NCBI RefSeq assembly: GCF_016806065.1
Contig: NZ_CP032405.1
Coordinates: 1,888,001 to 1,952,000, forward strand
Direction of reading: 5' to 3'
Length of the DNA stretch: 64,000 nucleotides
From: Rhizobium rosettiformans
GTDB taxonomy: Bacteria > Pseudomonadota > Alphaproteobacteria > Rhizobiales > Rhizobiaceae
The notes under the pieces were generated by a model. The model made no database searches. It worked only from the letters and a program-made list of their open reading frames with translations, and had not been told where the DNA came from. Positions within the stretch are counted from its first letter, which is position 1, and every line of letters begins with the position of its first letter. The translations under genes were made by a program, and so were the position numbers. Positions 60,979 to 62,201 of this stretch are shown piece after piece.

Positions 60979-61016
60979 AGCGATTGAAAGAAATACAGAA
61001 ATCCAAGGGGATGGAA

Positions 61017-61044
61017 TGGTGCTGCTAGAGAGATTTGAAGCCTC
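61017..61044 (-). other. Putative attachment site: 3' tRNA-like fragment
   Basis: Read on the minus strand, the sequence is GAGGC, TTCAAAT, CTCTC, TAGCAGC, A, CCA, matching in order the T stem, T loop, T stem, acceptor strand, discriminator and CCA of a tRNA. Only one of the five T-stem pairs fails, at the side facing the element. The rest of a tRNA is not present at 61045-61110, so this is a fragment. Its orientation fits a copy displaced by integration at a tRNA 3' end. The tRNA identity is not determined. Confidence 0.45.
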
Positions 61045-61147: not shown

Positions 61148-61363
61148 ATGACCAACACCACCGGCCCCTTCGACGCCATCGCTCCCACCCAGACCGTCGC
61201 TGAAACTGTGACCATGCTGAAGAACCCCCACGCCGCCATCGGATGGGCACTGGAGCATCTCCCGCACCAACTCAATGAGTTCTTCACCGAGTACAAGGAT
61301 GACGCCGACGAGTACCAGTGGTCCGTCAACATGACCCAGTGGGTGGAGCATTGCCGCTCCTAA
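61148..61363 (+). CDS. Hypothetical phage-region protein, 71 residues
   Basis: Small acidic protein, MTNTTGPFDAIAPTQTVAE onward, with HAAIGWALEHLPHQLNEFFTEY and a C-terminal EYQWSVNMTQWVEHC. I recognise no family. It has no membrane segment and looks helical. The ATG at 61148 has CGGAG 6-7 bp upstream, which supports real translation. It is the first gene inside the putative element; a hairpin follows 27 bp after its stop. Confidence 0.55.
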   Translation: MTNTTGPFDAIAPTQTVAETVTMLKNPHAAIGWALEHLPHQLNEFFTEYKDDADEYQWSVNMTQWVEHCRS

Positions 61364-61441: not shown

Positions 61442-61810
61442 TTGTCCGACCACCGAGCCCTCCGCGCATACTTTGAAGCTGGCCAGTACATGGCCTCCCT
61501 ATCCTCCACGCTGGAACTCCCGGTATCCATCTTCGTGACCTTCATGGGAGCAGCCATGTGGGCCGACCGTAGGGACCACGTTGACGGCCCGATGCCCCTG
61601 GAGGAACTTGCAGCCCGCACAGGAAGGACACCCTCAAGCATCTCCGGCCACCTTCGCTACCTGGGGGACCGGTACCGTGATGGGAAGCCAGGCTTTGGAC
61701 TGGTGAAGACCTACGAGCACCCGACAAATGGACGCATGAAGACCTTCCAGCTTACTCCCAAAGGGGAAGCCGTGGCGGAGCACTTGCGGTACCTTCACGG
61801 CAGGGACTGA
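61442..61810 (+). CDS. Winged-helix DNA-binding protein of the phage-like region
   Basis: 122 residues. After an N-terminal helical part (ALRAYFEAGQYMASLSSTLE) comes a winged helix-turn-helix: PLEELAARTGRTPSSISGHLRYLGDRYRDGKPGFGLVKTYEHPTNGRMKTFQLTPKGEAVAEHL, similar in layout to MarR/PadR-type and phage replication/regulatory wHTH proteins. The start is TTG at 61442 with AGGGAGA upstream; no ATG is available earlier. The family name is not certain. It lies just ahead of the four-copy repeat, which could be its binding site. Confidence 0.65.
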   Translation: MSDHRALRAYFEAGQYMASLSSTLELPVSIFVTFMGAAMWADRRDHVDGPMPLEELAARTGRTPSSISGHLRYLGDRYRDGKPGFGLVKTYEHPTNGRMKTFQLTPKGEAVAEHLRYLHGRD

Positions 61811-61822
61811 GAGGATGACGGG

Positions 61823-62092
61823 GCAATAGGCGTGTACTTGAAAGGCGTTCAACTCGCGGCAGAAATCTAATAGGCGCGTACTTGAAAGAGGGATGCCTTG
61901 ATCCGCCCGCCGTGCCCCGAGAAAGCTCGATGTCGCGGGCTGGAGTCCGAGCCTCAAATCTAATCTCCACGTACTTGAACAGGCCGCGCCTGATCGGCTG
62001 CTATGGGAAATTCCCTCCCATTCGAAGAAGCCTATTCAAAATCCGTCATTTCTCTCAGCCGCTATGGGCTAATAAGCGTCCACTTGAACAGG
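61823..62092 (+). repeat. Four direct copies of a ~23-nt motif in a gene-free stretch
   Basis: Copies begin at about 61824, 61867, 61960 and 62069 and are all on the plus strand. Aligned, they read (C/G)(T/C)AATaggCGygtACTTGAA(A/C)rGG, with AAT and ACTTGAA invariant. Spacing is irregular (43, 93, 109 nt). The 391-bp gap 61811-62201 between the winged-helix and virion genes holds these and no convincing ORF. The layout (TAATA block, about 6 nt, then CACT/TACT, then an A-rich step and GG) resembles single-subunit phage RNA polymerase promoters, though repressor operators or origin iterons are also possible. A second shared string, GCYGCTATGGG, occurs at about 61998 and 62059. Confidence 0.7.
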
Positions 62093-62201
62093 CGTTAGAC
62101 CGCCTCTGACAATCTCATCACCAATCACCACCTAGCCGTGCCGCCATTCACTGGCCCGCGAAGGCTTCACCACATCCCGACATCACATCAAGGAGAAGAC
62201 A

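Follow-up and report, generated by a model that had tools for sequence, protein, structure and literature searches.

An array of four 18-nt motif copies, AAT-N8-ACTTGAA, lies on the plus strand inside a 12.2-kb element integrated at tRNA-Thr(GGT) in the Rhizobium rosettiformans genome. Comparisons with related elements and with complete T7-like phages suggest that the copies are T7-type promoters for the RNA polymerase of an infecting T7-like helper, and that they belong to a satellite of T7-like phages. Judged from sequence, this reading has a probability of roughly 0.6. The window, which is the whole analysed stretch of 64,000 nt, was C1:1888001-1952000. DNA rightward of the window was added as L006, in which a coordinate equals the window coordinate minus 61000.

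Motif array and adjacent genes

A scan of the window for AAT-N8-ACTTGAA returned four plus-strand and no minus-strand matches, and 0.03 matches were expected (100 shuffles, largest count 1). In the whole 5.14-Mb genome (five contigs), five matches were obtained, namely the four array copies and an isolated one, and the control pattern, AAT-N8-ACTTGAA reversed, matched once. The four plus-strand copies reported in the initial annotation were thus borne out and form the sole cluster in the genome. Their starts had been placed 1-2 nt off, at 61824, 61867, 61960, and 62069 (Table 1), and the conserved part measured 18 nt instead of 23 nt. The gene-free stretch ahead of the large gene spans 61811-62201 and has the claimed length of 391 bp. 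The copy-to-copy spacing was irregular (44, 93, and 109 nt), which makes the iterons suggested earlier less likely. On comparing L006 with L009, a version of this element with 90% DNA identity across 7.5 kb, the AAT and ACTTGA ends were kept at all four places, and the 8-nt middle was variable. A promoter layout with an AT-rich upstream part, a specific middle, and a start region at a fixed distance fits the array; TATAGGG is absent from the window copies.

Table 1. Features in and around the motif array (window coordinates)
Feature	Position	Strand	Basis or remark
Left element end, 25-bp direct repeat of tRNA-Thr(GGT) 3' end	61015..61039	.	Second copy at L006:12222-12246, outside the window
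Small ORF	61148..61363	+	ORF list; conserved in L009 (91% identity)
Winged-helix regulator, 122 aa, PHROG 9665, rival array binder	61442..61810	+	Profile match and homologs
Array copy 1, AATAGGCGTGTACTTGAA	61825..61842	+	Motif scan
Array copy 2, AATAGGCGCGTACTTGAA	61869..61886	+	Motif scan
Array copy 3, AATCTCCACGTACTTGAA	61962..61979	+	Motif scan
Possible weak fifth site, AATTCCCTCCCATTCGAA	62009..62026	+	Looser test; not kept in 90%-identical L009
Array copy 4, AATAAGCGTCCACTTGAA	62071..62088	+	Motif scan
Internal virion (ejection) protein, gp16 type, 1170 aa	62202..64000, runs past the window to 65714 (L006:4714)	+	

The large gene downstream of the array had been described as virion-like, and the homology searches agreed. 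Its product showed approximately 26% identity (tblastn) to 'internal virion protein D' of T7-like phages and matched a PHROG internal virion protein profile (E 1.8e-8). Homologs of the winged-helix protein encoded upstream of the array were found in L009, G255, L010, L013, and L017 and in the complete phages G003, G028, G030, G026, G015, L234, and L235, and most of these loci and phages have related sites. In a viral contig (L343:1157-1538, IMG/VR 3300011535_000019), a winged-helix homolog with 47% identity directly precedes a single window-motif copy, beyond which the sequence looks by eye like the tail of a terminase gene. No polymerase match was obtained at this locus.

The 12.2-kb element and its relatives

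The element contains the small ORF, the winged-helix gene, the array, the gp16-type gene, ORFs of 170 and 213 aa, a 432-aa family-A polymerase-like protein (p434), transposase genes of two insertions, which we take to be of IS3 type, and an integrase gene split into two halves with transposase genes between them. In the relative G431, 72 bp separate the matches to the two flanks, as would be expected of an empty site. Another relative, G442, carries a different insert of about 7.8-7.9 kb at the same tRNA-Thr site (C1, between 808291 and 816157). The earlier term 'phage-like region' was too generous, as the 12.2-kb element holds only one T7-like virion gene, which is intact. A separate cluster of phage-like genes, presumably Mu-like by its protein features, was seen in the ORF list farther downstream (L007-L008, approximately 80-118 kb window-relative).

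The element yielded no gene for RNA polymerase, portal, capsid, or terminase. The initial annotation had proposed looking for a single-subunit RNA polymerase gene in the same element; none was found there, and no match to PF00940 (T7-type RNA polymerase) was obtained in its own genome (G000), so that no cognate polymerase was seen alongside the array. The same query had no match in the genomes of all eight array-type elements examined (L009, L010, L013, L014, L017, L018, L021, and L027); it scored in 0 of 14 control genomes and in 14 of 36 records reached through the loci. As an integrative element with an integrase and att sites, the element resembles satellites, and its integrase gene is interrupted in this copy, which is therefore probably immobile.

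Relatives of the ejection protein numbered at least 232 among 7995 candidates scored. They occurred in 18 of 394 genomes sampled from the family of the host, its own genome counted, and at no fewer than 80 viral-contig loci. A scan of named genomes yielded 45 loci, of which L009-L034 bear Rhizobiales-type titles and the others are more distant. G255 is a fuller relative, whose ejection protein is 71% identical.

Gene content was compared using the core proteins of two complete phages as queries against 24 hand-chosen minimal-element loci; complete phages and distant or truncated matches among L009-L053 were left out. Portal, scaffold, capsid, tail tube A, gp14, fiber, terminase, primase, and DNA polymerase were each found in 0 of 24 loci. 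These absences hold for the fetched stretch only, because several stretches are short or cut by contig ends. Within that limit, the loci are devoid of the portal, capsid, and terminase genes for particle formation and packaging, as expected of satellites. By comparison, gp15 was detected in six loci, tail tube B in two, RNA polymerase in two, and p434 in 15. In each of the seven complete phages, polymerase, primase, DNA polymerase, portal, capsid, tubes, gp14, gp15, and gp16 were detected. Terminase went undetected in G011, whose record is cut, as did scaffold in G014 and fiber in three, and p434 was found in none. The same reduced gene set in 24 loci, together with p434 in 15/24 versus 0/7, suggests a lineage of its own rather than independent decay. 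A gp16-type gene together with a T7-type RNA polymerase match was observed at L033 (with G025:C13:403942-405105) and at G381:C1:4610001-4650000, and at none of the other 22 loci; these two are possibly satellites that kept a polymerase or cut prophages.

The arrays of other elements have the same layout (AAT or GTT, 8 nt, and a 7-nt block) with other blocks. G255 carries seven copies with the block (A/C)CTTGA(A/T), and G389 carries eight of the CDATGAG type; the blocks are TCCTGAA-like in L014, ATTAGAG-like in L017, and TATAAGGGAAG-like in L021. Among 14 regions upstream of ejection genes, chosen after viewing the sequences, seven had counts reached by at most 1 of 200 dinucleotide shuffles. 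The counts were not significant in L010 (25/200 shuffles), L013 (65), L018 (16), and L027 (47), and nothing was seen in L024 (128), L016 (194), and L026 (200). The same statistic gave 4 for L006 and 6 for G389 on the opposite strand, because a repeated motif repeats on that strand too.

Matching sites in complete T7-like phages

In complete T7-like phages, a site of the array class was located directly 3' of the RNA polymerase gene, and a second site was located behind terminase. G011 carries AATAGCCACGTACTTGAAAAGG (also AATAGCCACGTACTTGAA) behind the polymerase stop, which equals the window motif at the invariant positions. Behind the polymerase gene, G028 (IMG/VR 3300006946_000008) has two copies of AATAGGCGTGTTCTTGA(A/T), 78 bp apart, and G003, a Nitratireductor prophage, has AATAGGGTCGTACTAGAA. 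An array-class site was present at this place in 12 of 29 viral-contig polymerase loci inspected by eye, out of at least 80 such loci, six of the 12 being duplicates or records used elsewhere too. One or two further copies lie behind terminase, and the first 12-13 nt are common to both sites.

The 13-nt block of the two sites was phage-specific. For seven phages, the sum over own pairs was 84, compared with 79 for the largest derangement (0/1854); the own pair was not the best of its row for G014 and G036 and was tied for G026. These were 7 of the 10 phages with a located polymerase end (13 records), the others being G032, with no anchor, and G031 and G035, with an anchor under a loose pattern only. 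Five further phages gave 63 versus 54 (0/44 re-pairings). The anchor element occurred in 8 of 16 records searched, of which these 5 were used, G449 having one mismatch in its anchor; G456 and G458 (anchor in the other orientation only) and G461 (no located polymerase) were left out. The second site of G450, AATTCCCGCACTATAGAGGGGA, resembles the T7 promoter, which reads AATACGACTCACTATAGGGAGA. A recognition block that recurs at several sites within a polymerase-bearing phage, as expected of promoters, was thus observed in the phages; for the window motif itself, this holds through G011, G028, and G003 only. Site similarity did not correlate significantly with polymerase identity (rho 0.52, p 0.085, 12 sites).

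The T7-type promoter reading, initially drawn from layout, is supported by these array-class sites behind polymerase and terminase, which are also the promoter places of Pseudomonas phage LUZ100. The lack of a polymerase gene in the element had been set as part of a refutation, and none was found. This absence is compatible with promoters, because the element may be a helper-dependent satellite; with no RNA polymerase found in the element or genome, a helper phage would be required, and the array could not fire by itself.

Other signals are shared as well. A degenerate form of GTGCTCAAAGTGAC follows terminase in complete phages; in L006 (L006:7453), L009, G255, G199, L014, and L018, it follows p434. 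It matched 36 times in 3.0 Mb, some of these matches being the same DNA twice in overlapping loci, versus three for the reversed pattern. With one mismatch allowed, it was found in 8 of 16 further phage records, versus one record with a control match. Its place may point to a role in packaging or maturation. Directly behind p434, a T7/T3-like site resembling ATAAC-N2-GCC(A/G)CTA was observed in L006 (L006:7346-7364), L009, L013, L014, L018, L021, L027, and G255, reading AATAACCGGCCACTAAAGG at L006:7346, ATAACCGGCCACTAAAGGGG in L021, and ATAACTCGCCGCTATAGGC in L013. This site is more uniform than the arrays, and its block is not common to the array.

A second repeated motif, in several copies per genome, was present in G003, G011, G015, G026, G028, and G030. 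It is of the ACACTACGCAT type in G003, G011, and G028 and has other sequences in the rest. It often immediately precedes the array-type site that follows the polymerase gene, outnumbers that site in several phages, and is similar to it in G026 and not in G028. This motif could be the main polymerase promoter; its spread would also fit polymerase promoters, which counts against our reading of the array. We go no higher than 0.6 because of this second phage motif, the unmatched site behind p434, and the association with the winged-helix gene, including L343.

Alternative readings and known systems

The main rival is that the adjacent winged-helix (MarR-like) protein binds the copies as asymmetric operators or activator sites, with its recognition helix on ACTTGA and its wing on AAT, and thereby controls the ejection-protein operon. 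The regulator gene immediately precedes the array in the window and adjoins it in several relatives, its homologs accompany many arrays as well as phages with related sites, and the motif copy of L343 stands just behind such a homolog. However, the array elements L014, L018, L021, and L027 had no winged-helix match, that of G389 was marginal (E 0.04) and away from the array, and no match was found in the phages G035 and G036, which have paired array-type sites. In elements without the gene, a homolog from the helper phage would need to act in trans. The copies are not palindromic by inspection, and the fixed places of the phage sites behind polymerase and terminase suit promoters better. Control by this protein appears unlikely to be the explanation.

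The copies may instead be replication-origin sites multiplied by the satellite for replication proteins of the helper or for its own polymerase-like protein. This overlaps with helper-polymerase promoters, because T7 origin sites are themselves promoters. The primary origin of T7 lies behind the polymerase gene, which is the place of the phage site; the distance of 78 bp in G028 is comparable to the 75 bp from phi1.1A to phi1.1B of T7, and most element loci encode the family-A polymerase-like protein. However, the arrays precede ejection genes and are not beside p434, and the irregular spacing also speaks against this function, which we consider improbable. Least probable is an inactive leftover in a decaying phage remnant: the split integrase and the loss of genes that L009 and G255 keep would fit and may hold for the mobility of this copy, but the ejection gene is intact, the reduced gene set recurs with p434 in other loci, and L009 retains the motif ends around a varied middle.

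The best explanation of the element is a non-autonomous satellite of T7-like phages that is degenerate here, and the array is read as promoters for its helper's polymerase rather than for any product of the host or the element. Polymerase recognition, transcription, protein use, and packaging are inferred, as follows. The element may be switched on only during infection by a T7-like virus, remaining inactive until a phage whose promoter specificity fits produces its RNA polymerase. The helper polymerase would start at the four promoters (seven or eight in some relatives) and transcribe the ejection-protein operon; the satellite-coded ejection protein could then enter helper particles, and the post-terminase-like stretch may let the helper terminase package satellite DNA. 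More broadly, we give about even odds to a satellite family of T7-like phages in Rhizobiales-type hosts, whose virion genes would be wired to promoter arrays that match a different helper polymerase in each lineage, with ejection proteins of their own, a miniature family-A polymerase, and a borrowed post-terminase signal.

If true, such satellites would exploit T7-like phages via their most specific handle, the promoter of the phage RNA polymerase. The arrays would record the helper polymerases met by each lineage, so that helper range could be read from DNA, and would supply many diverged polymerase-promoter sets that are naturally paired. A satellite that brings ejection proteins would make the contribution of gp15/gp16-type proteins to entry testable.

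By their descriptions, P4-like elements, PICI, PLE, and PICMI are similar in being small integrated elements with an integrase and without genes for their own particles; they differ in that, within the literature searched, none is described as using promoters of a helper single-subunit polymerase or T7-type ejection proteins. A literature search, with subscription papers and preprints mostly outside its scope, found no satellite of T7-like phages with promoter arrays. In T7, phi1.1A/B lie behind the polymerase gene and phiOR lies at the right genome end, with the start region 13 nt after AAT. The array class shares this layout and these places; the window copies differ in having no TATAGGG, and the element differs in having no polymerase.

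The promoters of LUZ100 (OP329100) were mapped by ONT-cappable-seq (PMC10134795). Its phi2 and phi3 follow the polymerase gene as a tandem pair, and phi8 follows terminase. Of its eight annotated phage promoters, seven show (A/G)ATTACCACACAG with a conserved block after it, and phi5 lacks the motif. The polymerases of LUZ100 and G028 are only 35% identical. LUZ100 differs in that its sequence is another one, about 2 nt longer after the AAT-N8 part, and in that it is a complete phage with its own polymerase and without an array of 4-8 copies. It is alike in that its phage-polymerase promoters stand behind the polymerase gene and terminase, which are the places of the array-class phage sites.
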